This document shows positions 211 through 60,249 of a stretch of 64,000 nucleotides of DNA, piece by piece; the first letter of the stretch is position 1, and each line of letters starts with the position of its first letter. The position numbers and the translations under genes were made by a program. The stretch covers positions 19,443,422-19,507,421 of the forward strand of contig OZ022591.1 of the NCBI GenBank assembly GCA_963669155.1, read 5' to 3'. The notes under the pieces are model-generated. The model was not told the DNA's origin and ran no database searches. It was given only the letters and a program-made list of their open reading frames with translations. Origin of the DNA: Arbacia lixula. Taxonomy: Eukaryota > Echinodermata > Echinoidea > Arbacioida > Arbaciidae.

Positions 211-382
211 GAGTGACCCACTCTAGTATTATCTGTGATGGGTGTGGTCAGGACCCAGTAGCTGGGATGCGCTGGAAATGTGCCAGTTGTGGTAACTACG
301 ATCTGTGCACAGTCTGCTACATGAATGACAAGCACGATCTGACACACATCTTTATCCGGTTTTCCTGCAGTTCAGAAACTGG
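211..382 (+). CDS. Exon: ZZ-type zinc finger of the mind bomb-like protein
   Basis: The reading begins GVTHSSIICDGC after a CAG acceptor at 208-210 and continues with three Cys-x2-Cys pairs (CDGC, CASC, CTVC) and a closing His pair in KHDLTH, the ligand pattern of a ZZ finger binding two zinc ions. GVxHxxIxCDGC followed by the sequence GMRWKC is typical of the ZZ in the MIB-ZZ-MIB (MZM) module of mind bomb proteins, which helps bind Notch-ligand tails. The donor is GG|GTAAAT at 383, leaving phase 2, which matches the next exon. The preceding intron starts before the window. Confidence 0.9.
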
Positions 383-3300
383 GTAAATTTCAGATTTCTG
401 CTAGAATTATTTTGTTTTTCCAATGATATTTATGTTTAATGAAAAAAATTATGTTTGGGGCCAGAAAATACTTTAGGATTGTGGTTTGTGCTTTTATTGT
501 CCATTACAGATAACAAATGGGAATTCTATCAATTCTTTAAAAATTTAGTATACCCTTTTTAGTTTTTTTATCATCTTTACTGCATTATAACTTTATAGCA
601 AATGAAAAGCTGAAAATAATTCCTAAAATTGTTCAAAAATGTAATTTTATTGATTTTCTTAAATGATAGAATACAAATCACTCCTCGATTTGGGGAGACC
701 AAGACACCTGCCAAGGGACTGTTTCCAGAGGCAACTGTTCAGCGAGCTGGAGATGGGCAAGAAAAGAAATCAAGTGGTATGGCTCGCCTTAATATCATCA
801 TCACCCTACCCCTTTTCCTCCTGCACTTTCTCTCTGTCTTCATCTGTTTCCCCCTCATTTTTATTCTCTTATTTGTTACAATTTATGTTTTGTTTTCTTT
901 GTCACGTTCTCCCCTTCTTCTCCATCTTAATTCTTCTCATCCTTCTGCATGATGCTTTGTCTCCTCCTCCTTCTCTATCTTTTGTGTTGGTCTTCTCCTA
1001 ATTTTGTAATCTTTCTTGCCTCTCTAGGTCTCGGGTCCCCCTGCTATTCCTCTTATCCTTCTCCTTGTCAAGGTTTCCTTTTCTTTTTATCTTTAATCCT
1101 TCTTCTATTGTTTTGGTCCCCTCTTTTATCTATGTCTCATCTTTGTAATCACCATTACAACCATTTCTTCTTCTTTCCTTCCTTTTTCTTCTTCTTTGTC
1201 CTTGTTTCTTTCCTTATTGATATCATCTTCATTTGGGTTGGTGCTTTTGAACACTTTTGCTGCAGTGCAAATGAAGTAAACGCATCTATCAATTTCAGAG
1301 TCATCATCAATGTTGAATTCTGCATGTTGTTATCAGTGATATAATATGTGTATGTAAGAATAACCATTAAGATAGTAACAGCAATAATGACACTCCTGTT
1401 TGTTGATTCTTAACCCTTTGTGTGCTTGACGAAGTACTGCTCTATGGGATATGTGTGCATTATTTGTGCAAAAATGCACACGTGACGTGTCAAGGGTCAA
1501 TCATTACAATTATTTCTAATTTTTCAGAAAAAAGTTTTAGCAAATTAATATGTACTACTATACATGTTTCACATTTCTTTGATGGAAAATATTGATTTGG
1601 TACTATTGTTCTTTCTAATGGTCAGGTGTTGAGGGTCAAGTGCTCAAAGTCAAGCCATGGGAGGGAAGGCAGCGGTCTGCAGTGACCGTGCAGTGGTCAG
1701 AGGGGGATGCAAGTGACCATAAGGTTGGATATGATGGTCAGGTGGAGCTGAAGTACATCAAGCCCACTACGGGCATCGCATACTACTCCCAGCACCTCCC
1801 CCTACTAGGTGAGCTGAAAATTAGTAAAATCAATGTTGCAATAAAGGGAAATATTATGATTCTCTTTATGTTTATTATCATGATGTTGATGAATATAAGA
1901 CCTGAATCTGAATCATCTTTTCTTCTTCAGATATTTTGCGATCAATACAAAGTCTTTTACTTGTATGCATATGCCTACTGACTTTCTTTTTTTCCTAATA
2001 TTCCACATAAGGGTTTCATTCTTTCTACTTACATGAAATCTTATATCATATATCTTAATATCTTTAATATTACATATCAGTATGAATATATATGTGTGCG
2101 TTTGTGTTTGTGTGTGTGTGTGTGTGTCGTGTGTTCATGTTTGTTAAAAATACAAATCCTTTTATTTTATTTATTATATTGATACATTTGTTAAAATCTA
2201 TGGCTTGTATTTTGTGTGAACCATTGAAAAGGTGATCAATTTACCTAATTTTAATAAAACCATGTACGTTTAGATATGTTCCCAATTTTTTTTGTTCATG
2301 CATTTATTTGATATGACTATGTGTGCTTCCATGTCAGGTAAGCCTCTAGGTTTGCAGACGGGCGATAATGTGGCCATGACACTCGATGCAGAAACTCTTC
2401 AGGCCATGCAAGCAACCGGTGGCCTGGAATGGCAGTCGGGGATGAGAGATGTACGTATCTTTCTTCTTCATGTTTCCTTCTTCTTTTCCTATCTCCCTCT
2501 TTCCATTTCCCTTCTTTTTGTTCATGTTCCTCCCTCTTCCTCTTTCCTGCTTCCTGTTTCTCATCTTATTCTTCATCTTTTCTATCATCTTCTTCCTATT
2601 CACATTATTCATTTTTGTCTCGCCCACCGGAGGTGAAGGCGAGACTAAGGGATCCAAATGGCGTCCGTCCGTCGTCCGTCCGTCGTCCGTCCGTCGTCCG
2701 TCCGTCGTCCGTCGTCCGTCGTCCGTCGTCCGTCGTCCGTCACAAATGTTAAAGTTTACCTGCAAGACTCTCTTATGATCCATAACTTCACATGGGTTGC
2801 TTGGATTACAACCTAACTTGGGTCATAGATGCACTGGGGGTACCTTCATGTTATGGTGGCGTTGGAGGTCACAGGATAAGGTCAAAGGTCATTTGAGGTT
2901 ATACGTTAAAGTTTACCTGCAAGACTCTCTTTTGACAAATAACTTCACATAGGTTGCTTGGATTACAACCTAACTTGGGTCATAGATGCACTGGGGGTAC
3001 CTTCATGTTATGGTGCTGTTGGAGGTCACAGGATAAGGTCAAAGGTCATTTGAGGTCATTGCAAGACTCTCTTTTGACAAATAACTTCACATAGGTTGCT
3101 TGGATTACAACCTAACTTGGGTCATAGATGCACTGGGGGTACCTTCATGTTATGGTGGCGTTGGAGGTCACAGGATAAGGTCAAAGGTCATTTGAGGTCA
3201 TACGTTAAAGTTTACCTGCAAGACTCTTTTGACAAATAACTTCACATAGGTTGCTTGGATTACAACCTAACTTGGGTCATAGATGCACTGGGGGTACCTT

Positions 3301-5674
3301 CATGTTATGGTGGCGTTGGAGGTCACAGGATAAGGTCAAAGGTCATTTGAGGTCATACGTTAAAGTTTACCTTCAAGACTCTCTTTTGACAAATAACTTC
3401 ACATGGGTTGCTTGGATTACAACCTAACTTGGGTCATAGATGCACTGGGGGTACCTTCATGTTATGGTACCGTTGGAGGTCACAGGATAAGGTCAAAGGT
3501 CATTTGAGGTCATACGTTAAAGTTTACCTGCAAGACTCTCTTTTGACAAATAACTTCACATGGGTTGCTTGGATTACAACCTAACTTGGGTCATAGATGC
3601 ACTGGGGGTACCTTCATGTTATGGTGCTGTTGGAGGTCACAGGATAAGGTCAAAGGTCATTTGAGGTCATACGTTAAAGTTTACCTGCAAGACTCTCTTT
3701 TGACAAATAACTTCACATGGGTTGCTTGGATTACAACCTAACTTGGGTCATAGATGCACTGGGGGTACCTACATGTTATGGTGCTGTTGGAGGTCACAGG
3801 ATAAGGTCAAAGGTCATTTGAGGTCATACGTTAAAGTTTACCTGCAAGACTCTCTTTTGACAAATAACTTCACATAGGTTGCTTGGATTACGACCTAACT
3901 TGGGTCATAGATGCACTGGGGGTACCTTCATGTTATGGTGGCGTTGGAGGTCACAGGATAAGGTCAAAGGTCATTTGAGGTCATACGTTAAAGTTTACTT
4001 GCAAGACTCTCTTATCACACATAACTCATCACATGTTGCTACAATGACAATCAAACTTGGATGATGGATGCACTGGGGGCACCTGCATGTTATTGTGCTG
4101 TAAGAGGTCACATGATAAGGTCAAAGGTCATTTGAGGTCATACATTAAAGTTTACTTGCAAGACTCTTGGTGAAGGCTTCCTAACTTGTGCACAGAATTG
4201 TGTGAGCATGTGTGAGCATTACTGATGTAGATTTAGGCAAACATTACTCGGACATGCACATTTATTCAAATTTATTCAAAGTCACTATTTTGCACCTGAT
4301 TTTGATGTTGTCTGTTTAAAGTTGCTTATTAGTTTGTTTCAGTTTTCTTTTGCGTAGCAACGGAGATCGCGATATTTCTGGTTATTTTCGCAAGTGGGCG
4401 AGACACAATATTGCTAATGCCTTGTTTCTTCTTATTCTTCTTCCCTCTCTTAAAATTCCTGTTCTCCATCTTGCTCCTTACCGTTTCTTCTCGATCCTCT
4501 TTACATTATTCTTCTTCCTCTTACCCCCTTTCTCCTTCTTCTTCCCCTTCTCCAAATGTCCCCTCTTCTTCCTCTTCTTCTTCTTGTCCCTCTTCTTGTC
4601 CCTCTTCTTTTTCTTCTTCCTTTCTTCCTCTTCATCTTTCTCCAATTCTTCTTCCTCTTCCATTTGATCTTCTTCTTCCTTTTCCTTTTCTTCTTCATGT
4701 TCTTGTTCTTCCTCTTTCCAATGTACTGTATGAGATTCTAAAAGACACCATTTTACCTCAGTGTTTATGATTATCATGGAAGGTAACATTGTAAAGTAAA
4801 ACACATCTAATGGAAAACTGTCCCCATCAGCTATTGGATCTAGGCCTCTAGTTTGGAATGCCACTGTCATAACTAGACCATGCAGGTCATAAGTGCGTTT
4901 GGTAACACCAAACTCAATTACCCAACAAGCAGCTCCTCATTCTCTGTATTTCCTTTGTTTGACCAGTGATGGATTGTATGTTGTGTCCACAATATATTCA
5001 ATAGAATCAAATGAAATGGCTAGTATTGAAAACAATTCTTCATCTTCTGTAACAAAATAAGAACCAATACAATGTATGACAAATATTATTTGAATAAAAT
5101 ATAACATGACATTGAATATTACAATTCATTTCCTTCAATAAACTTTTTTGACGTCTCAGTTTCCTGCCATTCATTTTCTCCTTCTTTTTATTGTCTTTTG
5201 TCCTTTGTTGAATGTAGATGTTTGCCAAGGTAGGGAAGGTCAGTGCAGTGACCAGCAGAGGAAATGTCCAAGTCACTTACAAAGACGGCAAAAGCTTCAC
5301 ATTGCATCCAGACGCATTGTGCAAGGTAGGCATGACATAGAAGGCACTGGAGGTTGCTCTTCAGTTTCTGCTTCAAATGCCTCGTGATCTATACAATGAG
5401 TAAAATGCATCCAATTCCACTGAGTAATTTTGCAAATTCACATAGTCATATATATGAATGACGTACCTCAAAAAAATAATGCAATTGAAGTCACCTCATG
5501 CGGATAGATTTCACTGGCTGCTCTCGATGCAGCATATATAATGTATACTATTGTCCTGGCCCTCCATATATTGCAAGGAAAATTATTTTGCCAATATAGT
5601 TGCATTAAGGACATTAGTGCAGTTAAAATGTGTACTATTATTATTATTACTATTATTCTTATTATTTTTTATTA

Positions 5675-5756
<82 letters not shown>

Positions 5757-6192
5757 ATTGCCATATAAATGATCAGGTAACAAGACTGAGGAAAATGGAT
5801 TCTTTTTTTATCATACAAAGTAACTGTAATTTCTGTAATATGTACATCTTTTTTATTTCAAAGTTGTTGATAAGTTTGTACTGATCATTTATCACCAGGT
5901 ACCAAGACTCGGGAAAGGAAATCGAGTCCCTCAAAAAAATAATACAATTGAAGTCACCTCATGCAGATAGATTTCACTGGCTGCTCTCGATGCAGCATAT
6001 ATAATGTACTGATCATTTATCACCAGGTACCAAGACTTGGGAAAGGGGATCGAGTGAGGATCACTGGGGATTTGATGCTCGCCATAAGTCTACAGGAAAA
6101 CAGCCGCAATGGATGGGTGGAAGGGATGGACAAGGTATGTGATGAAGGGATGAGTGGGAGATGGAGAGAGGGAGCACATATAGATGGGGAGG

Positions 6193-6231
<39 letters not shown>

Positions 6232-6522
6232 TGTGAGGGGGTAGTTAGAGGGGAGAAAAAGAGGAGTCTGATGCAGGGCCGTCACCAGCTTTTTTCTAGG
6301 GGGGGGGGGTGCTTTTTATGAAAAAAAACACAAAAACACAAAAAACAAAAAGAGCCCTCAAGTATCCCTACCCTCCCCCCCCCCTCCGGTTTTGTTTTGT
6401 TTTGTTTTTTATTTTGTTTTTTATTTTGTTTTTTTATTATTATTATTATTGGCGACGGCCCTGTGATGGAGGGATAGAGATTGAGACAGAGAGGGGGAAG
6501 AGAGAGAGAGGGAGGGGCAAGT

Positions 6523-6555
<33 letters not shown>

Positions 6556-9500
6556 GGGGGGAAGAGAGAGAGAGAGAGAGAGAGAGAAATAGAAGAAATC
6601 AAGACTGACAGCTAGGCTAAAGAGGAAGAAGGAGAGTTGGTGTGAGAAAGGCAGAAAGATAGATGGGTGGCCAGAAGGATGAGCTTAGGAAGAGAAAGAT
6701 AGAGGGGAAAAGAGAGAGAGCGAGAAAAGTGGGAGAAACATATAAGAATTTCTTTATTTTCATGTCTGCCTTTTGCTGTTGTAGTGCCTAGGTATGGAAG
6801 GGGATGTTACCAATGTGGACACGCATTTTGACGCCAGAGTCAAATTGGTGGGGTTCAGCAAGGCGTGGTCATGGCATCCATGCACCCTTACTCTCATCAA
6901 GAAAAATTCACCAGATGATGACCCCTTGATTGAAACAGGTAACTAGTATACATCTTATGCTGCATTCCTTGTTTCCTCCTCTTCTCTTCTGCCCCTTAAT
7001 TACCTTTTATTTTTCTTTATCCTTCTCTATTTTTTTTTTGGTAACTTGTTGCATGGTGATTTTATTGAAAAAAAAACCTTTTTGTTATTGCCCATTTTAT
7101 AAATGAGTGTTCTATAAGGATATAGGATTATGTGCACGCGATAACTTTGGCATGGTCAAAAATACACTCAGCTGCGCCTCGTGTGTATAAACCATGCAAA
7201 GTGACCTTGTGCACACAATTCATACCAGCCACTCAGACCTGTGCTTTGTAGCTACTGCTACGACTACAATTCCTGCTGATCTGTAATGACAGTAGAATGA
7301 CTATACTTGTCTTTTCCTGCTACTTCATGGACAATTGCCTGTTTGCAGACAATGATAGCAGTGATTTGCTCATGAAGGCCCTGATGGCTGCGCTAAAGAC
7401 AGGAGAGGATAGCGGTACTGGTTCTGAAGATGAGCTAGGAATGGCTGCCAAGCTGGGCAACCTGACCCGTGTGATGGAGATCATATCTGTGACACCAGAA
7501 GAAGTGAGTTCTATGGGGCTTAATCAACAAAGGGTGGGATGAAGTGCTGTAAATGTCCTCACATTTTCCAAACCCCCGGCCTTGAAAGTTTGAAGCAAGA
7601 TAACAAGATCAGTGCTAGCAATATATGCATGATTTTCTTAAACAATGCATGACTCTTGTCCTCAATTGTGCTCAACTGTCACTTCTGTTTTATTAACGAA
7701 CCTTTTCAATTCTCTCTTGCAGCCAAACAAGGTGCATGATTTGATTTAGCTCTAATTGTATCTTGTCCTCAAGTGTCCTCTTTTATTCTTCAAACCCTCT
7801 TGAATCACTGTTTCAGGCCAACAAGAAGCATGGCGAGACTAAGAAATCAGCTCTGCACAGGGCTGCGGCTCAGGGCCACCTTGAGATTGTGCAAGCACTC
7901 ATTGGGGCAGGAGCTGAAATTGAAATTCAGGACAAAACTGGGAATACTCCTCTCCACTATGCTGTTGAAGGGTATGTCTACATCTCCATGGTGGTGGTGG
8001 TGGTGGTGGTGGTGGAGAGGGTAGGGAGGGTGCATTAGTGGGGAGAGACACCAAGGTAAGGGGGCATTAAAGATCTGGAACAGTTGGTAACTGGAAATAT
8101 ATGGTAGCTGGTTGGTCTTTATCTCTGTAGTCTGTAGTGGTGGTGGTGGTGATGGGGTGAGGGGGGGGGGGGAGGAGGGAGGCATTAGTGGGGAGAGACG
8201 CCAAGATAAGGGGGCATTTATATATCTGGAACAATTGGTAACTGGAAATATATGGTAACTCCTTTTCCAACTGGAACTATAGATGAGTTCAACTATCCTA
8301 TTTAATGAAATCAATTAGCCAACCAGTGATTCAATCATCATCATTGAATGAAAGAGCTGGGTATATCTTCTATCACCATGCTATAACCACATGTTTTGTT
8401 CTAGTGGTGAACCAGCGATAGCAAAATACTGAATTGGGGAAGGAGCCAATATGTTGATTCAATCATTATCATTAAATCCAAGAGCTGGGTATAACTTAAT
8501 TGTATTACCATTTTTATACTAATTTTTTTTCTAGTGATGAACCAGCGATAGCAAAATACCTGATTGAAAAAGGAGCCAATGTGAACCGGGCAAACAACAA
8601 TGGTCGGAGGGCTATTCACTTCGCTGCTTACAAGGGCCACGTGGACTGCGCTAGAATCCTCATCAAACAGGATTGCGATGTCAACTTTAAGGTACTCACA
8701 TATAGGGCACAGTACAGGGGCTTGTGACATGAAAGTACCGGTAGTAGCGGGATTGAGTTTCTAAATCATGTCCCCTTCTCACTTTTGTCTACAAAATTGT
8801 GAAAAGGTGTCTCTGTTTTGTCTCCTTCTCTTCAAGGACAAATGAGGAACGAAAGGAAAACAAAATGAAGAATTTGAAAAAAGAAAATATATCAATATTA
8901 TTTATTAAGAACACATGAGAGAAAGCAGCCTTCCTGTTACATGCAATAAGAGGTTTAGCAACTATAGTGTATTTTATTCAAGCACAAATAAGGAGAGAAA
9001 GGAAAACAAGATGAAGACGAAGTTGAAGAAAGAAAATGAATCATTATTATTCTTTATGTTCACGTTGGTCAAGACATGAAAATACTTTTACTAGTGTTGC
9101 ATCATTAAAGTATTAAAGTAAAATGAAGGATCAAATCTGCATTTCATCATTGTTTATGTACCTTTTATTTTTGATGATCGATATATTTCAGGACAATGAT
9201 GGGGATACTCCCATACATGACGCCATAATCAAAGATAGAGAGGATGTTATTGAACTTTTACTTGAAGTCCCCAACATCGACTTGACTCTGCGCAACAAGA
9301 GAGAACTGACGGCACTTGAATTGACGGCCTATTGTGACAGACCAGAGTAAGCCATCAGCAAGATTGCTGTAACTTTCATTTGTCGAAGCTCAAAAGATTG
9401 TTTCTGTGTCCATCTTTCAACTATTCTGTGTCAGACAGTCTGCTACTCTTCTGGCTTTGTAAGCCCTGTTCTAGTTTGGATTTTAAAATTTGCCATGCAC

Positions 9501-12500
9501 TGCACTGCAGTGCAGTGCAGTGCAGTGCTGTGGCTGCATTTTGTCCCAGGTATTTGAAAGACTCAGCCTTCAGTCTTCTATTGTCTGAACAGCAGAATGT
9601 ATGGTACTGTAGTCATGCTGCGTAATATCACAGGAAAAAAAGCTGGCCAGCATATATATGCAGGCTTAGCAAAGAACAGGTTAAGATCTGTCTAAAAACA
9701 AGCAGCCAAGGGGAGATGAAGATGAGATGAAGGAGCTAAAGAGGAAGAAATGAAACAAGGAATTTGAGAAGAGGCTGAATAAAACTCATAAGAGGTAAAG
9801 AAATAAGAATAAAGAGAACAGCTAGAATAAGGCTAGGAAAAGAAATTATACAATGGGGAAGAGGAGGGAGAAAATGGAAGAGATGAATAGCAGAGAAAAA
9901 GATCAAGGTAAGTCATACAAATATGTTAATTTTTCATTTCAATCATTAATAACTTTATCACGATCTACTTCTTTCTTGTTCACCTTTAGCGTCATCAATG
10001 TATGTGCATTTTCTAAATCCAAAGAGAAATATTATTGTCATCATCTGCAGAGCTGCCCGGCTGATTGTCATCGCCAACCAAAAGGCAATTTTAGTCCCAC
10101 GCGCAGACGGACACACTGTCCTACACATTGCTGCCGTCAATAACCACATCAAAACAATGAGAGCTATTCTGAGCTGCAAGGTGAATACATCATGAAATAC
10201 TCTTTATGCCACTGTCATAGTTTGGGACGATAAAGCAATACAAACAAATGGTGTGAAGAAGCATTGTATTTGGCACACAAAGGTTTCAACATGCATTTCA
10301 CATGCAGTGTCTATCAACAACTCCTTTTTCTCTCCCAGCAGCCTCCTTCATTGTTATCTTGCTTACGAGGCAATGGAAGAAGGTCCAATGATTACCCCTA
10401 TGACCCCAATGACAAAGAGATCAGCTTAGCTTAATTAAGTCCCTAGTAGTTTTTTGTGTTGCAAATTTTTTTTCTGTTTTTCCCTATTTTGTTGAAATTC
10501 AGACTGTTTAAAAAATGGGGAAAAAAGAGTTTGTGCTTGAAAATAGGAGAAAAAATAGAACAATTTTTTCCCCTATTGTCTAATACACCTATTCAAACTA
10601 TTTTTTCTCTTTTTTCACCTCTTCATGTATTTCTTTCTGATTTTTTTCCTATTTCCTATAAGAAAATAGGAAAACAATAGTTCAATTCTTTCCTTATTTT
10701 CAGGCACAAACTCTTTTCCCCCATTTTTTCACTCTCAACTTTTTTGGACTATTTTATCTCCTTTTTTCACCCTTCAACCTTTTTCAGATGATTTTTTTGC
10801 TATTTTCTCCAAGAAAATATGATAAATCTTTACTCTATTTTTGACTTCATAACTATTTTCCCCTCCTTTTTTTGTCTTTTTCAGACTTCTTTTTACATAT
10901 TTGCAAGTACTATTTTTCTCTATTTTCCCACTATTTTTTTCTATTTCTTCACTATTTAATTATTGTTTCCCCACTATTTCTCCCCAAATTCATTACTATT
11001 TTTCACTCTCCACTATTTTCCCCCTATTTTTTACTATTTTTCCTATTTTTCCCTATTTTCAGGCCTGAAAAATAAGAAAAAATATAAAAAAAATTTTTAA
11101 CCCTATTTTTTCCCTATTTCCAAAAAAATATTCCTGTTTCTTTTTCCTTTTATAAAATAGGGGAAAATATCTTAAGGACTGTTTTCCCTATATTTCCCTT
11201 TTTTCCCTATTTTTTTTTTTTTGGCTGGAGGTGTGTCGTACTCTTTAAAAACAGGGCAGCCCTTTTGCAGGTCAATAAAATAGAATATATTGTAAAACCA
11301 CACAAACATGGAAGAAAATGTTGTACTTCCCTCCCAATTATAGAACTCGAAGCCAACTCTAAGCAGAACTATAGCGATCGCTAGATTTTGGACGAGTTGT
11401 TGCAAACTTATAGCCTGGGTACCGGAGACTCAATATGCTGTCGTGCAAATGCACCACGGCTCTTCGCACCACGCAGTGATGAATTATTGACCTGTATACG
11501 CTCATAGTTGCAAATACTGTATGTCCAGGTACGGCTATTTGAAATGCAAACAAGGAGAGTTTTTCACTTTTAGTAATATGGCTCGTGAAGCTATATTTCT
11601 GTGAGATTATTTACACATTATTGTTAAGGTATAAACTGCAAATGGGCTACCTTGTCTTCACGTCATTGGAATTGTAATTCCATAAAATGGAAATTCATTT
11701 TTCTTCTTTCTACTGCGTACATTGCGTGAGCAGGTTGGGTCTTACTTTAAATACTCTAATACTACATTACTTGTTTCACTTAAATTCCATCCCCTTTGCT
11801 ATAGGAACATGCTGGACTTGACCTGAATGCGAAAAATGAAATTGGACTGACCGCACTGCATCTGGCAGCCACCAAAGGCCAGACTGACTGCATTGAGTAT
11901 CTCTTGGCCCAAGGTGCGGACATCAACTTACAGAACCATGATGGTCACAGCGCCCTCCATCTTGCGGCAAGTGCCAGGGCAAAGGATGAGGACAAGTTTA
12001 AGGACACGCCCACCTTACAAAAGGTTACCTCTTCTTTTGGTGCATTTGTCGACATCATACAACATTTATTAGACTGCATGAACAAAGTTCATGTAATATA
12101 TCACCCTTAATTCAATTTGTTTTAACCATCAACAAAAGTATGCTTGCTTTTTCCACAATATCAGGGCCGTCGCTGGGGGGTGTGGAGGGTGCGAACGCAC
12201 CCCCCTTCAGAACCAAAAAAAAAAACAACAACAACAACTAAAAAAAATTGGAGGGGGGGGGGGTGGGGGGTAGGGATCCGGCGGGCTATATAAGTGCATG
12301 AAATTGAGTTAATCATGGGCGGAAATCCCGGGGGGACGGGGGGGGGGGGGGGACACAATATCAAATGTCCCCCCCCCCCCCCCCCCCCACTATTTTCGTT
12401 CGTGTACAAAAATTGTTAGAAAAACGTCATAACACCCCCCCACTGAGAGCATTTTCAGAAACTGGGCGGGATAAAAAAAATGAAGGAAGAAAAAACACCT

Positions 12501-14697
12501 CCCAAAAATCCCATCACTACCCCCCCCCCCCCCCCCCCCCCACTCACTTACTTCTTGAGGAAAAACATGTCCCCTCCACCTTCGGGGGAGCGATTTCCGC
12601 CCATGGAGTTAATACATTGTTTTTTGCGTTTTTGTGGGGTTTTTTCATAAAAAGCACCCCCCCTAGAAAAAAGCTGGTACCGGCCCTGCAATATCCTAAT
12701 CCTTGTAAGTCGTAATTACTGAAGGTATGCTTTGATATTAAGAATTACTCTCCACTGAAACAAACAAAGAGAGGATCTAGGAAATGTGGTTACAGTTCAA
12801 TATTCTGAAGGTTCGTTTATTCCAAAGGTTCGTTATTCCGAAGGTTCGTAATTCTGAAACAGGTAAATTGCCTATAACTCGATGCTTGTTAGTCCGAAAA
12901 TGAAAAAGGGCTCGTTAATCCGAGCATTTGTAGTGTAACGTTCGAAATAATGAACCTTCTGAATAATCGAGTGCTTCCCGGAAATTTCATGAATTTGTAG
13001 TGATCAACCACTATTTGGCATGGTGTGTTTTTTTTACCACTGCTGTTCAAAATATAATTGCAGTATCTGCAATTTTACCACTCCTATCAGATCGTAGTTC
13101 TGCATGGCCGGGAAACCAAATAGAGCTTGATTTTGATTAGCCAATGTTAACTCACACCAGTCAAACATGCAAACAATTCATTCATTTAAAGGTGCATTTC
13201 TTCTTCTGGCTCAGAATGCACTGTGTTTAATACCTTGAAAGGGATATCACATGTAATTGATCTCAAATATAGGTACAAACAGTGGGTAGCTGATTATTAC
13301 ATTCAGATGAAATCCAGGACTTATTTAATTATAACACGAAGTGCACTGCAGCAAAAGAAAAAAAACATAACTGCCATTTTGTCTTCTTCTGCTGCTATGC
13401 CAGACACGCAATATACCTGACTGCAACACGTCAGCCTGATTGCTGTAACAATACTCTCTAATTACCTTCATACCCAGATTCGCAAGCGCTACAATGGGGA
13501 GGGTGGTGTGACTGATGTGGGTGCGGCATTGTTGTGCTTCATGGTCACGAACGGCGCACCTATAGACGTGGAGAACAAGCAATGTCGAACGCCGCTGTCC
13601 TACGTCAAGGACACAGTGCTCAAGAGAACACTGAAAAACCTTTCCCGCAAACAAAGGTAATGGGGTACTAAAGCAGATACTTGCTTCTTGATTACTATTA
13701 TAGCAAGCATGTGCTTCATAGGGGGGATTTAATGATATTGGTCTATGCACACCAACTCCTTGTATTATCTTTTTGATCCATGCTTTACCTGTGGGTTGTT
13801 CAAACTATCGTAACTTGCAATTAGCTACCACAGGACTAGCTTGTCAGTATTCACCTTGTAGCATTTAAAGCTGTATGGCTCTGGACTTCAACAAGGGCAC
13901 ATAAGGGCTCTAGTAAGGTTAGGTCAGGTAAAAAATAGCCTCATGACACTGCAAAGCTTATATGATTTCCTCAACAAACTTGAAAATTAGAAATAAGATA
14001 AATGGGAATAGCAATGCAAGATCCTCCCATTTAAACAACCCTGCTTGTATCACCCAACAGTGTCTTTAAACAAGGTTAATGTTGTACATAGCTTTACAAA
14101 TTGTGATTTCCAGTCAACTAGATGTATTATGAGATTAGCTAATGACCAATGAGTATTGAAGCTGTTAATTGTCATGGTAGTTACAACCACGGTTGCACAA
14201 TCCAGGGTTGATGAGACATCATCATGGGAAGATCTAGCAAATGACGAGGACGTCAGGGCTGGACAGCTCAGTGGCAAGAAGGACAACCATGAGGACACTG
14301 ACAACTTAATGGACAACAATTGCAGTGCTGACCCAGGAACACGCGAGGCATCCACTCCGGTGAAGTCCAAGATTGAAGGTAATTGCCTGCCAGTATCAGC
14401 CGTGACACTGGTGCTCTCATCATACAATCTGCGATTCTGTTAATTTCTCATAATATTTGTGTCATCATGAAGAGATAAATTATATGAAGGCCTGATATTG
14501 ATTAAAAACATGTCAGAGAAATTCATTGGAAAACTTTTGAGTATTTTACCATCCACATCCATACTAAATGATGATAATGATAAAAAGGATGGTGATCAAG
14601 TCGTTGTCACCATGTATGATGCTAGAATAAGATGTAATCATAAAAGAAGGAGTAATTATAGAAAAAGAAAGAAATTGTAGAAAATGTAGAAGTAGTA

Positions 14698-14759
<62 letters not shown>

Positions 14760-17700
14760 TGTTGTTGTAGAAGTAGCAGCAGAAGAAGTAGTAGTAGAGA
14801 GTATTAGCCAAGGTATTTGGTATGTTAGAAGAAGAAGTTGTAGTAGTAATCATGATGAGGTGTTATGAAATATCCAAAAAGGAAGTAGCTGGGTAGAATT
14901 TTAGAAGCACGTGCATGGTAGCAGTTGTTATAGTTATTGGACTAGCAGTAGGAAAAATCCTTCATCATCAATATTGTAAGTATAATCGTAATTTCTTTTA
15001 TTAAGACTATTTTGGCTTGTATTTTTGTCATCATTTTTATTTATTTCATTTTTTGAATATTGCTATTGTAGACAGTGTCTGTTTTTCCTTCTCCATTTAG
15101 TTTTTGACCTCGTGCACAAGATTGATGTTAAGGATTTGGATCTGGGGCCGGTCATTGGCAGCGGTCAGTTTGGCATTGTCCACCGGGCAGCATGGAGGGG
15201 AACCCCAGTGGCCGTGAAGAAGATATGCATCACTGGCAGCAAGAAGGATGAGGTGGAGAAAGAGGTCTCAATACACAGGTATTTGAAAGGAGAGTATCCT
15301 TTTAAGAATATTGATAGTTTAAAAAATTTAGTACACAATATATGGGTGACCATCTCACATGTGACATCGCAAACAATAAAACGATCATAACATTCTTATC
15401 CTTTGACGTATATTCTTCAAACCTTCACTGCTACCTTTCTTTTATGTTTCTGCTTTAATCAAAACAAACTTAAATTCAAGATGGACTTTTCCTTAAACTC
15501 TAAATGGCATTTTTATTGTAGTATGAGAGAATAACACCTCAAGGTCCACACTGTCCTCCTCACAGGCAAGCGTCTCACCCAAACATCGTTCAGATGATGG
15601 CCCTTGGTTACAAGGATCAAGATGCCTTCCTTGTCATGCAGCTGATTGAGGGAAGCAGTCTCAGTAACATCATCTTCCCTGAAACAGATGCCAAGGTACT
15701 ATCTGTTTGTCTGTCTATCTGTTCATCTATCATACTACATATATCCATCTCTATATACATCTTTACATCAATATGTATGTCTAACTTTATCTGTCTATCT
15801 TTATTGATCTATCATTTATCTGCTAATCTGTTCATCCATTTTAAGTGTATATTTGTATGTTGTATATATACACTACAGCTCAAAGGAATTGGCATAGGGA
15901 AAGGGAAAGAGAAGAAAGGGAAGGAGCCGCAGTTTTAAACCACGGTATATTGCCTAAAAAGCATCATGTTTCATGTTGAACTGGACAAAATATACCATGG
16001 TTTAAAACTGCGGCTCCTTCCCTTTCCCTTTTCCTATGCCAATTCCTTTGAGCTGGAGTGTATATATATGTCTGTTTCAATATTTATTTATATACCCTAC
16101 ATGTAATTTTCTATATCTATGTATGTCTACTTGTGTTTTTCCATCTGTCTGTCTAGCTATCTGCTATCTATCTGTCCTGCTATGAGCGTAGGGTTCCTTG
16201 TTTCCATTTGACTATATCCAATGCTGATCTTGTCCATGAAATGATGCCCATGCAGCTATTCCTGACTGATCCACGCATCTCATGTCTGCCGTTTCTTCTG
16301 CTGCATATACGCAGTGGCCCAAATTCACAAGGAAGTTTTTGATTAAGTTCACTGTTAATGCAAATTTCATGCTGTATAAGCAAATAAGTAGGCTTGATCA
16401 AGCGCATATACACTTACAGAAGGTCTAATAATGAACGCACGTGTTCCACGTATGGTACTAATATAACGCTACTTGCTATTTTTTAGATCATGTGTAGACC
16501 ATGGCTTAACCAAATTAATTAAAACAAACCATCTTCTAAACCATAGGAGCTAGCATGAATTAAGCACTCTACGTAAACCGGAGCGTTCACTATTGGAAGT
16601 TTTTTAAAGTGTACGCGCCAGACAAATAACCATACTTTGTTATTTGTTTATATGCCACAAAATTTGCTTAAATCATGGACTAAATTTAAACCTTGCTTGT
16701 GAATTCAAGCCTAGGTGTCCAGGCAACTAATTTTCATTCATATTTCCATAAGCAATTGCAGCTCGATATGTTTGATGTGTATGACTGATATGAACACCCA
16801 TAGTGCATATTGGGTTAAAAGGATAGTTCACCCTAAAGTTAAAGGGATAGTTCACCCTGAAATTCAATAAAGGCAGAAATATAAAAGCAATATATTGTTG
16901 AAGGTTTGATGAAAATCTGTTAAAAGATAAGAAGGTTATGATCTTTTGAAGTTTTGATTGTGTGGTGTTATGTACGAGGTGCTCTCCTAAATGAGTAAAT
17001 AATTTACATTTGATACAACATTAAAAAAAATTTTCACACAGATACCACTATGAAGGAAAAAAATCCTTCATCAAAAACAGAAAATGTATTGGGATTTTAC
17101 AGCACACAACATATGGGAGAGCACCCCGCATGTGACATCAAAAAATTGAAATTTCAAAAGATCATAAATTTCATATCCTTTGATGGATTTTCATCAAACC
17201 TTTACTTGTATATTTTTGCTTTTATTGCAACCAACTTAACTTAAGGGTGAACTATCCCTTTAAGTTGGCTTCATTAAAAGCAGACATGAAAAAAATCATA
17301 ATTAGTAAAAGGTTGACAAAAATCCATCCAAGGATAAGAAAGTTATGATCTTTTGAAAGATCAATTTTATTACTATAATCTGCACCGTGAGATTTGCGTT
17401 AATGATTTGCCCTCTGACCTTGTCCTTGACCATCTAGGTGACTCTGAGCAGACTTCAGAAGCTACAGGTGGCCAGGGAAATACTCCAAGCAGTCACCTTC
17501 ATGCACGCATGCAACATCCTACATCTGGATATCAAGCCAGCAAATATTCTGGTGAGCATGCAGATCCAATACTTGTGGAATTTGGGGCATATATCAAGTT
17601 GGCTGGATGGGTATGGCATTTTCCTAGTTGTCCTCATTGATGAAGTCTCTTTGAAACTAGCTAACGGCTTGTATCAATAGTTCTTTTTTTTACCCATTCT

Positions 17701-18308
17701 TTCTCAGGAGTTTGGCTAGGAGTGTACATTGACCACCAAATCAAATTTGTGCTTCTATCAGCAAAACTGTTGGGTTGTTTTTTTCTTCCTCTTTTCTTTT
17801 AACTACCTATAGATAAAGACATAACGACTGTATTGTATTTGTATGTTTTTTTTCATCAAATTAAGCTTGCTGTTGCGTCTTGCTCTTTTCTTGTCACTAG
17901 GTGGAGACATTAACCACCAGGCCGTACCTGTGTGACCTGGGCTTGGCACACATCAAGAACCGCAACCTCATGTCGCAGTCCTCCATGAACATGCGGGGCA
18001 CGCCCTGCTACATGCCCCCTGAAGCCCTGGGCCCGCCGGACCAGGGCAAGCGCCACACTCCCAAGCATGACGTCTGGTCTGTGGCAGGCACACTCACCGA
18101 GCTCTTTGCCATGCAGCGGCTGTGGGGGGACTCCATGCACCCGTTTGCCCTCCTGGCCCTGATGATGACGGGCAAGATGGGTAAGCCTATGGCACTGACC
18201 AACGTTGAGGCTGGTGTGAGGCAAATTCTCCAGCCCTGCTTCGAAGCTGAACCAGTCAATAGGCCGTCGGCCCATCAGCTTCTCGACCGATTCAACAAGC
18301 TAACCTAA
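211..18308 (+). CDS. Mind bomb-like scaffold protein with C-terminal kinase domain (5' partial, 19 exons)
   Basis: Exons I place: 211-382, 670-776, 1626-1808, 2338-2450, 5218-5325, 6027-6134, 6785-6938, 7349-7503, 7817-7971, 8535-8691, 9192-9346, 10051-10180, 11805-12023, 13478-13656, 14206-14378, 15101-15278, 15566-15695, 17438-17551, 17901-18308. All are bounded by AG/GT, and the phases chain without a break to a TAA at 18306-18308, about 1031 residues in the window. Domain order is ZZ, MIB/HERC2, two mind-bomb SH3-like repeats, ankyrin repeats, acidic linker, kinase. Known mind bomb proteins start with another MIB/HERC2 domain before the ZZ, so the 5' exons should lie upstream of base 1. 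They end in RING fingers, which mediate ubiquitin transfer to Notch-ligand tails; no RING cysteine pattern follows the ankyrins here. Exon calls are by eye, without transcripts. The gene model is strong; the function of the kinase fusion is unknown. Confidence 0.88.
670..1808 (+). CDS. Two exons: MIB/HERC2 domain
   Basis: Exon 670-776 encodes a basic stretch ending in a turn rich in KKSS, preceded by FPEATVQRAGDG, matching the start of a MIB/HERC2 domain. Exon 1626-1808 continues EGQVLKVKPW, then TVQWSEGD, then VELKYIK and HLPLLG, the core and closing strands of the domain. In mind bomb proteins this is the second MIB/HERC2 copy, directly after ZZ. The phase-1 junction between the exons is consistent. 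The 850-bp intron between them is pyrimidine-rich (800-1220, CTT/TCC runs) with no other coding signal. Confidence 0.87.
2338..5325 (+). CDS. Two exons: first mind-bomb SH3-like repeat
   Basis: Exon 2338-2450 encodes GLQTGDNVAMTLDAE then LQAMQATGGLEW, and exon 5218-5325 encodes FAKVGKVSAVTSRGN, VQVTYKDGKSFTLHP and ALCK. This is the fold of the mind-bomb SH3 repeat: a GD-V start, an LQ..HGGW-like helix, a GxVxxV strand, then W/F-x-x-x-P. The pair makes the first half of the REP region that binds a second site in Notch-ligand tails in known mind bomb proteins. The 2.77-kb intron between the exons carries the 157-bp satellite array (2740-4170) and a pyrimidine tract. Confidence 0.85.
2632..2739 (+). 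repeat. Hairpin plus CGTC/GTC simple repeat heading the 157-bp array
   Basis: GTCTCGCC at 2620-2627 is mirrored by GGCGAGAC at 2638-2645, then the sequence becomes an irregular run of CGTC and CGTCGTC units to about 2739, where the 157-bp satellite begins with no gap. The three parts look like one composite repeat inserted in the intron. Confidence 0.8.
2740..4170 (+). repeat. 157-bp tandem satellite, about nine units, with nuclear-receptor-like half-sites
   Basis: The marker GCAAGACTCT recurs at about 2762, 2919, 3061, 3218, 3372 (as TCAAGACTCT), 3530, 3687, 3844, 4001 and 4158. The spacing is about 157 bp throughout except one 142-bp step where the segment around ACGTTAAAGTTTAC is missing. 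Units are nearly identical in the middle and more divergent at the right end (4001-4170), as expected when unequal exchange homogenises the core. Each unit holds AGGTCACAGGATA, AGGTCAAAGGTCA (a perfect DR1) and AGGTCATTTGAGGTCA (a perfect DR4; the first unit has AGGTTA). The array lies wholly in the intron between exons 4 and 5 of the kinase gene. Confidence 0.95.
4430..4730. repeat. Pyrimidine-rich low-complexity tract (CTT/TCC)
   Basis: About 300 bp of almost pure C/T on the + strand in the intron before exon 5. It makes long spurious open frames on both strands (Ser/Leu/Phe-rich or Lys/Glu-rich). Confidence 0.85.
5466..6008 (+). repeat. Tandem duplication copying the 5' edge of exon 6
   Basis: An 80-bp intron block at 5466-5545 recurs at 5928-6008 with a few changes. 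The block CTGATCATTTATCACCAG plus the first ~27 coding bases of exon 6 occurs at 5881-5927 and again at 6009-6053, where the real exon begins at 6027. The false exon copy (from 5899) reads VPRLGKGNRV and then enters intron sequence, reaching a stop at an in-frame TAG near 5967. Confidence 0.9.
5636..5756. repeat. ATT trinucleotide microsatellite
   Basis: About 120 bp of ATT/ATC units inside the intron before exon 6, with scattered C interruptions on the left. It produces meaningless poly-Ile/Tyr/Leu frames. Confidence 0.95.
6027..6938 (+). CDS. Two exons: second mind-bomb SH3-like repeat
   Basis: Exon 6027-6134 gives VPRLGKGDRVRITGD, then ISLQENSRNGWVEGM; exon 6785-6938 gives CLGMEGDVTNVDTHF, VKLVGFSKAWSWHPC and TLTLIKK. 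The layout repeats that of the first SH3-like module (GDxV, W-x-x-x-M, G-V strand, W-x-x-x-P), as expected for the second unit of a mind bomb REP region. A damaged copy of the first exon's 5' edge lies just upstream at 5881-5927. The intron at 6135-6784 holds a GT microsatellite, a small MITE (6274-6463) and a long GA-rich tract. Confidence 0.85.
6190..6600. repeat. GT microsatellite, then GA-rich tract, flanking a small MITE
   Basis: (GT)n at about 6197-6236 and GAGA-rich sequence from 6473 to 6595 flank the inverted-repeat element at 6274-6463. All lie in the intron between exons 6 and 7. Confidence 0.85.
6274..6463. mobile_element. MITE with CAGGGCCGTC terminal repeats
   Basis: Starts CAGGGCCGTCACCAGC and ends GGCGACGGCCCTG, near-perfect inverted ends. 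TGATG precedes the left end and follows the right end, a possible target duplication. The left end including CTTTTTTCTAGGGGG matches, reversed, the right end of the element at 12162-12688, so both are one family. The ends resemble hAT elements, but the 5-bp flanking match is shorter than the 8 bp usual there, so the class is tentative. Confidence 0.75.
7349..13656 (+). CDS. Seven exons: ankyrin repeat block
   Basis: Exons 7349-7503, 7817-7971, 8535-8691, 9192-9346, 10051-10180, 11805-12023 and 13478-13656. After an acidic cap (TGEDSGTGSEDEL) they encode eight clear ankyrin repeats plus a partial one; landmark starts are SALHRAAAQGHLEIV, TPLHYAVEGDEPAIA, RAIHFAAYKGHVDCA, TPIHDAIIKDREDVI, TALELTAYCDRPE, TVLHIAAVNNHIK, TALHLAATKGQTDCI and SALHLAA. 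The eighth is stretched by a charged insert (RAKDEDKFKDTP) that runs across the last intron, much as the last mind-bomb repeats are. This is the usual number of repeats for the family. The donor at 12024 (GTTACC) is weak but keeps frame. The ankyrin block normally positions the catalytic C-terminus; here that is a kinase. Confidence 0.88.
7653..7735 (+). pseudogene. Decayed tandem copy of the 3' splice region and first codons of ankyrin exon 9
   Basis: TCTTGTCCTCAA begins at 7653 and again at 7761. The first copy runs through a pyrimidine tract to TTGCAG (to 7722) followed by CCAAACAAGGTGCATG, which parallels the real exon start GCCAACAAGAAGCATG at 7817. In frame the copy reads PNKVHDLI then a stop TAG. 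It has a usable-looking acceptor but would terminate the protein if spliced in. Confidence 0.7.
7985..8265. repeat. Intronic tandem duplication with GGT microsatellites
   Basis: A block (GTGGTGG run, then GCATTAGTGGGGAGAGAC, TAAGGGGGCATT, ATCTGGAACA and GTAACTGGAAATATATGGTA) occurs at about 7988-8108 and again at 8134-8262, about 150 bp apart. Confidence 0.85.
8326..8452 (+). pseudogene. Tandem copy of the 5' edge of ankyrin exon 10, with stop
   Basis: GATTCAATCATCATCATTGA at 8326 recurs as a close copy at 8456. The first copy carries a TTCTAG acceptor and about 50 bases of exon sequence (GGTGAACCAGCGATAGC...), ending in GGAGCCAAT; the second leads to the true exon at 8535. In the copy a one-base loss turns AAATACCTG into AAATACTG, so the frame reads GEPAIAKY then TGA. 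No good donor follows. Confidence 0.85.
8835..9065. repeat. Intronic direct duplication of a purine-rich block
   Basis: GAAAGGAAAACAAAATGAAG at about 8853 and GAAAGGAAAACAAGATGAAG at about 8999 start two related purine-rich blocks about 146 bp apart in the intron between exons 10 and 11. Confidence 0.65.
9505..9530 (+). repeat. Short GCAGT tandem run
   Basis: About five units of GCAGT/GCACT (CACTGCACTGCAGTGCAGTG region) in the intron between exons 11 and 12. Nothing else is recognised between 9347 and 10050, apart from a purine-rich stretch at 9700-9905. Confidence 0.7.
10441..11225 (+). repeat. Degenerate CTATTTT(C) pyrimidine tract
   Basis: Nearly 800 bp dominated by loosely repeated CTATTTTTCCC-like words on the + strand, with matching AAAATAGG words that allow local hairpins (for example around 10520-10560, 10660-10690 and 11060-11170). 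It fills much of the intron between exons 12 and 13. No open frame with a recognisable product. Confidence 0.8.
12162..12688. mobile_element. Outer MITE with CAGGGCCG ends, interrupted by a second element
   Basis: Begins CAGGGCCGTCGCTGGGGG and ends TACCGGCCCTG. CAATAT is found immediately outside both ends (12156-12161 and 12689-12694). It is the same family as 6274-6463. Inside sits the nested element 12314-12605. Long G and C homopolymers occur, so assembly length here may be unreliable. Confidence 0.8.
12314..12605. mobile_element. Nested MITE with exact 8-bp target duplication
   Basis: Starts CATGGGCGGAAATC and ends GATTTCCGCCCATG, perfect 14-bp inverted ends. GAGTTAAT flanks it exactly on both sides (12306-12313 and 12606-12613). 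The 8-bp duplication fits the hAT superfamily. About 290 bp, no coding capacity, contains poly-G and poly-C runs. It inserted into the outer MITE, giving a clear relative age. Confidence 0.88.
12795..12975. repeat. Short degenerate repeat of GAAGGTTCGTTATTCC
   Basis: GAAGGTTCGTTTATTCC, AAAGGTTCGTTATTCC and GAAGGTTCGTAATTC lie head to tail with a ~17-bp period at 12805-12857. Related words follow in both orientations (GCTCGTTAATCCGAGC, GTTCGAAATAATGAACCTTC), so the whole can fold back on itself. In the intron before exon 14. Confidence 0.7.
14206..14378 (+). CDS. Exon: acidic, serine/threonine-rich linker
   Basis: The exon follows a TCCAG acceptor at 14201-14205 and a GTAATT donor at 14379. 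It encodes a low-complexity hydrophilic stretch (SSWEDLANDEDVRAGQ, then DNHEDTDNLMDNN, then STPVKSKIEG). No domain is recognised. Phases fit both neighbours (2 in, 1 out), which is the main reason to accept it. It sits between the ankyrins and the kinase and probably acts as a flexible tether. A mind bomb protein would carry its RING fingers from about here on. Confidence 0.7.
14690..14845. repeat. AGT/TAG trinucleotide microsatellite
   Basis: (AGT)n at about 14692-14758, then GTT/AGA-type units with impure extension, in the intron before the first kinase exon. Confidence 0.95.
15101..18308 (+). CDS. Four exons: C-terminal protein kinase domain (TKL-like, non-RD)
   Basis: Exons 15101-15278, 15566-15695, 17438-17551 and 17901-18308. 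Visible kinase landmarks in order: glycine loop GSGQFGIV, lysine in VAVKK, helix-C glutamate in VEKEVSIHR, catalytic loop HLDIKPANIL, metal-binding Asp in CDLGLA (DLG instead of DFG), activation segment RGTPCYMPPEA (PPE for APE), DVWS, and the subdomain XI arginine in NRPSAHQLL. All residues needed for phosphotransfer are present, so an active enzyme is plausible. The residue before the catalytic Asp is Leu, not Arg, so it is a non-RD kinase. Overall it looks TKL/RIPK-like, although the HLD-KPAN form also occurs in Mos-type kinases; the family is uncertain. The stop TAA follows directly after the domain. Confidence 0.9.
15360..15480. mobile_element. Fragment of the TTAA MITE family
   Basis: ATAACATTCTTATCCTTTGA, followed by TTCTTCAAACCTTCA and an ACTTAA-like end, parallels the right half of the complete element at 16843-17259. 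Old and truncated. Confidence 0.55.
15871..16060. mobile_element. Palindromic MITE, CACTACAGCTCAAAGG ends, TA target (mariner-like)
   Basis: Left end CACTACAGCTCAAAGGAATT, right end AATTCCTTTGAGCTGGAGTG, with TA on both outer sides. The arms extend through GGCATAGGGAAAGGG and GCAGTTTTAAACCA, making almost the whole element a hairpin. A second copy lies at 41907-42134. TA duplication fits the Tc1/mariner superfamily. No transposase is encoded. Confidence 0.85.
16843..17259. mobile_element. TTAA-flanked MITE with AGGGATAGTTCACCCT ends
   Basis: AGGGATAGTTCACCCT and its reverse complement AGGGTGAACTATCCCT bound a 417-bp element, with TTAA on both sides (16839-16842 and 17260-17263), the target site of piggyBac-type transposons. 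The interior arms also pair (GGTTTGATGAAAATCTGTTA against the right half). An extra copy of the left end occurs just outside at 16814-16834. Relatives are at 15360-15480, 17284-17375, 35680-36090 and 54845-54998. Confidence 0.85.
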
Positions 18309-34432: not shown

Positions 34433-37400
34433 GTAAGTACTATGAGTTATGACCTTGAATTAGTGTAAAAATAGACCTAAAGTAAAGTAAAGTTGACTAC
34501 TACGATAACTAACAGATAGTTGGAGTGACGATTTTAAAGTTGTCTAGAAAAATTCTAGAAAATGGTTCCAACTTACTCGTAGCAGAAGCAGTAGTGTACC
34601 CACGTATTTTCATTTGCGTTTGCCAAAACAAGCCGAGTGACGTGCCACAGCTTGCTTGTGCACTGTCTGTGTAGACAGCTGTTTTTGATTTATCTATCTG
34701 ATCGATGGTTATGTGCCTTACCATACCTGCCATATTATGATGGATCATAACGTAAAACTTATCTGCTAGAGACATAAACAAAAATAAACGCTAAATGTCA
34801 ATCTGAAGATGGGAAGTTACGAATGAAATTGCTGAATCAAAATGAGTCATTTTGAGATTGACATTGATTGAGATTGGCATTGCTAAGCCATTGCACAATA
34901 CTATGCAGCAGGAATTGAAGGTTTCATCATGACGGGTTAGTGCTGCAACAAAAGCAATACCAGTGGAACTACATGGAGTTCCATTACTTCAGTGTATTGA
35001 CAGCAGCAGCCAATAGTGAGATACTAAAAAGAAAAGAAAAGATAACCAGTCCTCATGAATGAGGGTCCTGCAATACAATTAACAATCTTGGCCTTCTGGA
35101 ATTTAGGAATAATGTCTTTTCAAATTCCAGGACATTTAAGGGTTAATTTAAAGACAGTTTACTTGCAGACAAGGTTGAGTCTAAGGGTAATTTACCGACC
35201 TACGTCCCACCTCTAGCAACAAGGTCGAGAAGGTACCTGACATCATTTATATCATTCCCTGATGTGAACTCATTTCAGGGAATGGATCCCTATAATTAAG
35301 TTTGAGGTCGAGATAAGATATTTGCCACAGGTTTCCACAGCAACTCACTAGTTTCACTAGTGTATTGGGTGACGATATTAATCTGCTGAAACACTAGTTT
35401 CAAGATTCTAATTTTAAAGCTGTCCTAAATACCTCAAAATTAGGCTAAGGATAGCAGTTTATAGATCTTAAGTTTAGGCTTAAGGATATGTCTAGGCGTA
35501 GTGTTTTTAAGGTCAAGCCAACAATTATTGAATTGTAAATCCATTTTTCACACATCTATGTAGTCCAATCAATTATCCAATTCATTATCTCCTCGTCTCC
35601 GGTTAAAACAACATAAAGCAAAATCATCCCACAAGTTCCTCAAACATAGTCCTCTGCGATATGTGAATAAAGGATCGAGATGTGAAAGAGACATATTTAT
35701 GAAGGTTTGATGACAATCTGTCAAAGGATAAGAAAGTTATGATCTTTTAAAGTTTTTATTTTGTGACGTCATGTGGGAGGTGCCCTCCTATATGTTGTGT
35801 ACAATTTTCTTTTAAAAAAGGCATTCTTTTAACCTGCATGTGCATTTGATACATCATTAGAAATACTTTTTTACACACATACCTGAAGGAATAAAAATAA
35901 CTCCATTGTCAAAAACAGAAAAAGCAATTCATGGAATTGTACACAACATTTGGGAGAACACTTCGCATGTGACGTCATAAAAAAGACATTTCAAAAGATC
36001 ATAACTTCCTTATCATTTAACAGATTCTCGTCAAACCTTCACAAATATGTTTCTTTCACCTATTTATATTCAGAGTGAACAATCCCATTAACCTACTTGC
36101 TAAGTTAAGTCAGTAAAGTGCATAATACCCAAGTCTAGTCCTTTGAATGGTCAAAAAATATACAATTTTGTACAAAAACAACAACACTCAAAATAATTTG
36201 AAAATGCACTTCCCTACCATAGAACTTGAAACTGTCTTTGAGAGGAATTGGTTGCCACCTTTGAGTAGGAAATGGCTGCTAGACTTCGAGTAGGTTTTGG
36301 ACAGTCCGTCAAAAAACTGTAACCCATTTTGTTACAATATACCATATTAGAAGCTGAGATGAAATTTGATTCGTTAAGTAATATGTTTACCAGTATGTTG
36401 ATTGATGCCTTGTTCCGTATAAATTTTTTATTCCTCAGGAAAGGTTATCGCACCATTCAACAGGGAGTGCAGAGCCTGTTAAGAAGCATTCTGATGAGCC
36501 AGAAATAATGGCCTGTGAACTGACTAACAAGGTAGAGCACCACATCAGCGATTCCGAAACACACAGTATTGAGAACTTGCCCTTGGAGGTGGTTCACTAT
36601 GTTCTCTTATTTGTACGCGATCGTGATCTGAAGGAATGCTCATGTGTGTCAACTGTTTGGTGTTCTGCTGTCACTGCTCAATCATTTTGGAAACTTAAAT
36701 GTATGAGAGCAGGATCATACATCGAGAAATACATGGCGCCCTATTGCCCATCGGACTGGAGGGAGTTCTACTTCAAGTCGCCATTTTCTAGAAATCTCGT
36801 GAAGAATTGTAGTGGACAAGGTGAATCTAGTAAACTGAAATATTTCAAAGAGCATAATTGAAATCTAGGAAGACTTCTACAAAGTACATAATACAGGCAA
36901 ACCCTGTTATAACGAGCGCAGGCGTATCGAGCAATTGTCTATAGCGAGGAAAAAATGTGGGTCTCGACATCTTCGTTATAACGTGCACGAGTATAGCAAG
37001 AACCTGCTTATTACAAGGACATTTCTCGGCAAATACTAGACATTGAATGGTTGAAGTTCACATAGGAATTCAGTTGTACATTGCCTTCCAAACATACATT
37101 TCTGAGAAGATCATCAATGTCAACCACATGAATGTAACCGAAGGAGCAGAGGCATATTTATCGACTGCGTGGCAATCACATTGCTCTGCGGTAGTTTGAT
37201 CATGTACTGATGTAGCCAGCAAGATGTGGCTTGCGATTTCCTTGTTGTAACTGGGTTTGCCTGTACACTTTAAGTTACTCCTAGAAGTGTTCTGGTTTAT
37301 TGATGCATTGCATTGTCATTTTGGCATAGATTGTTTTAAATGCAAATGAACTCTCACCACAGGGTACCCATTATGTTGATTTAAGTTTAAATGCAATAAC

Positions 37401-60243: not shown

Positions 60244-60249
60244 CTGAAA

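Follow-up and report, generated by a model that had tools for sequence, protein, structure and literature searches.

Can the scaffold of a mind bomb ubiquitin ligase carry a different enzyme at its C-terminal end? The question is raised by a gene of the sea urchin Arbacia lixula (hereafter A), located in a 64-kb stretch of contig C16 that was analyzed as a whole and is referred to here as the window. In this gene, the modules of a mind bomb protein are predicted to lead in a single frame into a protein kinase instead of RING fingers. In mind bomb itself, Jagged1 and Delta are bound at their N-box and C-box by the MZM and REP modules (PMC11887331). The reading that we favor, and consider probable, is that A is one gene for a kinase-bearing mind bomb scaffold, in which a linker and a four-exon kinase have taken the place of the RING exons, and whose product would recruit a partner and phosphorylate it. 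All searches covered the genome to which the window belongs (G000; 607 Mb in 590 contigs), and statements about the distribution of genes apply to this genome.

Results

Within the window, A comprises 19 exons on the forward strand (Table 1) that encode 1,031 residues. The original prediction had placed the gene at 211-18308, and these coordinates proved right: exon AG/GT borders were placed by eye and their phases then checked, the phases match at 18/18 junctions, and the frame closes with a TAA stop codon at 18306-18308. The 5' end is located beyond the window, where a first coding exon, about 1.5 kb to the left, provides the ATG (MAKVSVGQ...) and a first MIB_HERC2 domain scoring 69 bits, over the cut-off; the complete protein has 1,113 residues from 20 exons. 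With the A protein as its own query, our home-made spliced aligner recovered 20/20 exons from 20.5 kb, which constitutes a consistency check and not an independent proof.

Pfam and the phased model agree on the unbroken series that had been read from the letters, namely ZZ, MIB/HERC2, two SH3-like repeats, ankyrins, kinase and stop. The domain search on the predicted protein returned ZZ (2.2e-12), SH3_15 (7.3e-21, two stretches), Ank_2 (1.9e-48, four stretches) and a complete Pkinase domain (3.2e-42), together with a weak second MIB_HERC2 (7.4e-6; 26.2 bits, where the cut-off is 33.5, and 30.1 bits in the genome search). Two MIB_HERC2 domains, the first clear and the second weak, thus surround a clear ZZ as in mind bombs, followed by the REP module of SH3_15 repeats and by ankyrins, in an order identical to that of MIB1 and MIB2. 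The 377 N-terminal residues align to human MIB1 (4xi6, residues 5-381, E 9.3e-66). Unlike MIB1 and MIB2, A has no RING that we could find, and a kinase domain and stop stand in its place.

Table 1. Exons of gene A and other features discussed here. Positions refer to the window unless a contig is given.
Feature	Position	Strand	Content
Upstream first exon	G000:C16:19441665-19441874		ATG and first MIB_HERC2; outside the window, left
E1	211..382	+	ZZ zinc finger exon
E2	670..776	+	second MIB_HERC2, N-terminal part; hallmark RGxDWxW motif degenerate; SWRWARKEIKW in another frame
E3	1626..1808	+	second MIB_HERC2, C-terminal part
E4	2338..2450	+	mind bomb repeat 1 (SH3_15), first half
Tandem array	2748-4167		157-base unit, 9.2 copies, in the E4-E5 intron
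E5	5218..5325	+	mind bomb repeat 1, second half
E6	6027..6134	+	mind bomb repeat 2 (SH3_15), first half
E7	6785..6938	+	mind bomb repeat 2, second half
E8	7349..7503	+	start of ankyrin region
E9	7817..7971	+	ankyrin exon
E10	8535..8691	+	ankyrin exon
E11	9192..9346	+	ankyrin exon
E12	10051..10180	+	ankyrin exon
E13	11805..12023	+	ankyrin exon
E14	13478..13656	+	last ankyrin exon; phase 2 end; border identical in 3/3 kinase paralogues
E15	14206..14378	+	acidic linker between ankyrins and kinase; weakest exon of the model
E16 (K1)	15101..15278	+	kinase glycine loop, VAVK lysine, helix-C glutamate; no methionine ahead of glycine loop
E17 (K2)	15566..15695	+	kinase exon
E18 (K3)	17438..17551	+	catalytic loop HLDIKPAN
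E19 (K4)	17901..18308	+	DLG motif, PPE, C-lobe, stop codon
F-box gene	36406-37985	+	F-box and F-box-associated (FBA) exons
Non-LTR retrotransposon	42472-45754	-	endonuclease and reverse transcriptase frames
Lectin/sushi exons	54239-60268	-	C-type lectin and sushi exons, perhaps one gene
Mib1 locus span	G000:C11:10.396-10.628 Mb	-	MIB_HERC2 exons of G and three PF13920 matches
C18 cluster	G000:C18:19.868-20.047 Mb		seven MIB_HERC2 and six SH3_15 matches
Related kinase	C21:789156-791905		four kinase-exon matches in order

The remainder of the window contains three further features (Table 1). The F-box gene is presumably FBXO2/FBXO6-like. Frames beside the lectin and sushi exons have a HYR-like appearance; of these, two were run against Pfam and gave no match.

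A profile search of the genome returned 22 MIB_HERC2 exon matches, with two at each of seven loci, seven singles on C18 and one on C7. Six of the seven loci are on C16: A, B at 12.97M (-), C at 12.75M (+), D at 0.21M (+), E at 14.14M (+) and F at 20.26M (-). The seventh, G, is on C11 at 10.62M (-) and is named Mib1 here because it pairs with human MIB1 with full tree support. When the last kinase exon of A was used as a query (15/15 candidates scored), six matches were obtained, its own and five others. The three best of these (94-108 bits, 42-45% identity) are on C16, each on the same strand as and ~20-26 kb downstream of the first MIB_HERC2 exon of C, E or F; the two weaker ones are on C21 and C12. 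At C, E and F, tblastn with the A protein recovered ZZ, MIB and ankyrins followed by the four kinase exons, in order. No kinase exon was detected by tblastn in 30 kb at B (including 5,000 masked bases) or D, nor at either by the genome-wide search, nor by tblastn within the first 30 kb of G.

Spliced models of C, E and F reproduce the order MIB-ZZ-MIB-REP-ankyrin-kinase. Pfam finds MIB_HERC2, SH3_15, ankyrins and Pkinase in all three and ZZ in C and E, with ZZ absent from the F listing at E 0.001. The models are free of internal stops, a result obtained with queries and profiles derived from A and with an aligner that sets a penalty on stops and accepts borders of GT/AG (or GC) alone, so that similar borders and open frames are favored. 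The scaffold halves of the four kinase genes are 33-40% identical across loci up to megabases apart on C16. Since three further genes of the same build exist in this genome, the swap looks old and real, and its presence at four loci is more than chance. Proteins with MIB_HERC2, ankyrins and a kinase but no RING, for which the original prediction had suggested a search, are thus predicted for three paralogues in A's own genome.

The cluster on C18 reads as a further divergent mind bomb expansion. We considered its matches as candidates for further kinase fusions; a 20-kb stretch that spans one copy has MIB, ZZ and ankyrin pieces, no kinase match and, by eye, a CGH...CPFC stretch that resembles a RING remnant.

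That A lacks RING cysteines was borne out by two approaches. A six-frame scan for RING spacing, with CxHx2-3C allowed, found no pattern on either strand of the 64-kb window and none on either strand of 30-40 kb at each of the four kinase loci (A, C, E and F). The same scan detected three MIB-type RINGs as positive controls, two in B and one in D. With PF13920, at least 98 matches were found genome-wide, a lower bound since 150/164 candidates were scored. The profile is present in B and D; among the matches listed, A, C, E and F have none, and the nearest to A is ~0.37 Mb past its end on the opposite strand. At G, no RING pattern was seen within the 40 kb scanned, and three consecutive PF13920 matches on the minus strand of C11, ~220-230 kb downstream of the MIB exons of G and on the same strand, are taken for Mib1's RINGs by position. 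If these RINGs and the MIB_HERC2 exons belong together, Mib1 is a very long gene (Table 1). B and D have a scaffold as in A with MIB-type RINGs of their own; Mib1, by position, has RINGs too, and a kinase of A's type was found in none of the three. Because no C-terminal RING is predicted in it, A by this measure falls outside the mind bomb E3 ligases, although its scaffold is that of one. Fusion and RING loss, two parts of the original prediction, are both well supported by three diverged paralogues of equal exon plan and by the RING-bearing controls.

We compared introns among these genes, counting as shared those at an aligned place within 2 columns and in equal phase; B was represented by its first 6 exons and D by 15, and Mib1 was left out. 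A's 19 introns are shared by C in 16 cases and by E and F in 15 each, and A has 12 of the 14 introns compared in common with the RING-bearing D and 4/6 with B. Most mismatches either keep the phase with an offset of a few columns or are located in the linker; the phase also differs in F in the repeat region and in E at exon E8. In G, the second MIB_HERC2 is split at another place than in A. The exon plan of A follows that of the non-Mib1 RING-bearing genes and not that of Mib1, which leaves room for partners other than DSL ligands. B and D are putative MIB2 orthologues. The kinase-bearing genes and D have a common plan through the last ankyrin exon and diverge past it, which would fit a 3' exchange by recombination in the intron that follows. 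In a tree of eight rows (linkers and kinases cut, G cut after the first ankyrins and a badly modeled stretch of B removed), a weakly supported branch (69/82) separates A, C, E and F from B, D, G and human MIB1. A single fusion would be the simplest reading, and this tree is too weak to prove it.

Several observations at the border between ankyrins and kinase bear on whether A is one gene or two. In A, C, E and F alike, the last ankyrin exon ends at a phase-2 donor, and an acceptor precedes the first kinase exon. Read-through past the last ankyrin exon stops just after the donor at 4/4 loci, as it would in a gene that ends there, but a phase-2 GTAA donor alone produces this stop. In A, C and F, the part of the first kinase exon ahead of the glycine loop is free of methionine; E has one five residues before the first glycine of the loop, from which an intact domain could no longer start. 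Conservation is lacking in the linker exon, which is doubtful in C, where its complexity is low, and in E, where its acceptor is weak. A and F have an in-frame ATG ahead of the linker exon with no intervening stop, and a separate kinase-only transcript is possible at these two loci. In C and E, the 150 bases upstream of the modeled linker contain no usable in-frame ATG. The number of AATAAA signals between the last ankyrin exon and the kinase, relative to expectation, is 0/1.7 in A, 1/1.0 in E, 3/3.1 in F and 2/0.4 in C. Order, strand, spacing and border phases are kept at all four loci on C16. By these signals, A is far more likely to be one gene than two.

The binding modules were compared with human MIB1 by counting retained residues. 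At the 188 MZM positions common to human MIB1 and G, A keeps 79, C 90, E 96 and F 87, and the RING-bearing B and D keep 98 and 86; A has the lowest count of these six non-Mib1 genes. The corresponding figures for REP (of 117) are 42 in A, 42 in C, 58 in E, 33 in F, 42 in B, whose model is cut short, and 38 in D. By these counts, the kinase-bearing set and the RING-bearing B and D are at similar distances from Mib1. Core positions kept in A (62/98 in MZM and 27/42 in REP) are a measure of overall conservation only. The RGxDWxWxDQDGG block of the second MIB_HERC2 is lost in A alone among the four kinase genes; it is mostly kept in C and E, kept in part in F and degenerate in the RING-bearing D. 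With this hallmark lost in A, common Notch-ligand partners remain a guess. In another frame of E2, a W-x-W motif can be read as if it were present out of frame (Table 1), either through an old frameshift or a sequence error.

The kinases of A, C, E and F are 44-52% identical to one another, and the loop glycines, the VA(V/I)K lysine, the helix-C glutamate, HLDIKPxN, D(L/M)G and PPE are present in 4/4, as are the C-lobe aspartate and arginine; the catalytic residues are invariant. The residue preceding the catalytic aspartate is leucine instead of arginine, and we take these to be so-called non-RD kinases; RIPK4 also has HLD. The nearest solved kinases, by a ranking on PDB entries that is coarse, are CTR1 and NEK7 on top and also RAF and TAK1 (best E 1.4e-29 with one sequence and 1.5e-38 with a profile), which suggests a TKL/MAP3K-like kinase. 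The domain and its motifs are alike in these relatives, whereas the catalytic loop is HLD in the A type and HRD in theirs. We know of no mind bomb-like N-terminal scaffold in CTR1, RAF, TAK1 or NEK7. Codon differences rank third > first > second position in both halves of the genes and in 6/6 pairs, as expected under purifying selection, and both halves appear to be under constraint.

Four matches to the kinase exons are also present in order on C21, with 33-56% identity per match and a K3 exon that ends at the same KPxNIL site. The kinase on C21 and the relative on C12 were rejected as further fusions, as neither contig has a MIB_HERC2 match; the C21 gene is possibly a relative of the kinase donor.

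Discussion

Ankyrins and a TKL-type kinase on one chain, as in A, are also present in TNNI3K and ILK, where the ankyrins come first, and in RIPK4/ANKK1, where the kinase does. A has ankyrins first and a C-terminal kinase, the reverse of the RIPK4/ANKK1 order, and does not belong to that type. To our knowledge, none of these ankyrin kinases has MIB_HERC2, ZZ or mind bomb repeats. No description of a MIB_HERC2-ankyrin-kinase protein was found in the open-licence literature among the matches listed, and publication elsewhere is possible.

We propose that a MIB_HERC2-ZZ-MIB_HERC2-REP-ankyrin scaffold had its C-terminal RING exons swapped for the linker and the four kinase exons. This exchange was probably a single recombination event in a non-Mib1, MIB2-like gene, in the intron that follows its last ankyrin exon, after which the fused product was duplicated along one chromosome. 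Most likely, the MZM, REP and ankyrin part would recruit a partner, such as the tails of membrane receptors or signaling adaptors, which the TKL/MAP3K-like kinase, complete in its catalytic residues, would phosphorylate, with kinase output replacing E3-ligase output. A likely acts as a scaffold kinase.

What such a scaffold kinase would act on can be read in more than one way. A possible, if tentative, alternative is a kinase of innate-immune or NF-kB-type signaling on a MIB2-like scaffold, with no link to Notch ligands. The exon plan, which is that of the RING-bearing D at 12/14 introns and differs from the split of the second MIB_HERC2 in Mib1, is in line with this idea, as are the expansion of the family and a set of solved relatives that includes TAK1 and RAF below CTR1 and NEK7. 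In addition, the title of a work cited in PMC5978004 credits MIB2 with the control of BCL10-dependent NF-kB activation. Against it, the kinase ranking is coarse and the MIB2 orthology of B and D is putative. It is unlikely, in our view, that the four RING-less scaffold kinases act as phosphorylating mind bombs, which would use MZM and REP to bind the tails of Notch ligands and would then phosphorylate these tails. If they did, the kinase branch would compete with, or license, the ubiquitin-driven endocytosis carried out by Mib1 and the RING-bearing genes.

Comparably doubtful is a role of the fusion product as a decoy or scaffold without RING, in competition with Mib1 and the RING-bearing genes, with the kinase as a binding or regulatory module. 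No RING was found and MZM and REP are kept overall, and a Drosophila Mib1 without MZM appeared to be dominant negative (PMC11887331). However, four kinases of such low mutual identity all keep the glycine loop, lysine, glutamate, HLD, N and DxG unchanged, which speaks against a dead module, as it would have no need for these residues; the scaffold has also diverged far from Mib1. Poorest of all are the prospects of an adjacent pair, in which a MIB-ankyrin gene without RING and a separate kinase gene behind it were duplicated together: the link into a single transcript in A is predicted from genomic sequence, and the read-through stops and the ATGs ahead of the linker in A and F would suit it, but the arrangement has stayed constant at four loci despite the low identity of their scaffolds, the donor itself explains the stop, and a usable start is wanting before the glycine loop in all four genes and within 150 bases before the modeled linker in C and E.

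A kinase-bearing mind bomb scaffold, the reading that we prefer, would mean that an E3 ligase with a central role in Notch signaling has a substrate-recruiting half that is reusable with another enzyme at its end, and that the outcome was kept and multiplied. With RING-bearing and kinase-bearing genes on one chromosome of one genome, the role of the scaffold in the choice of partner and that of the C-terminal enzyme in attaching ubiquitin or phosphate would be directly testable against each other.
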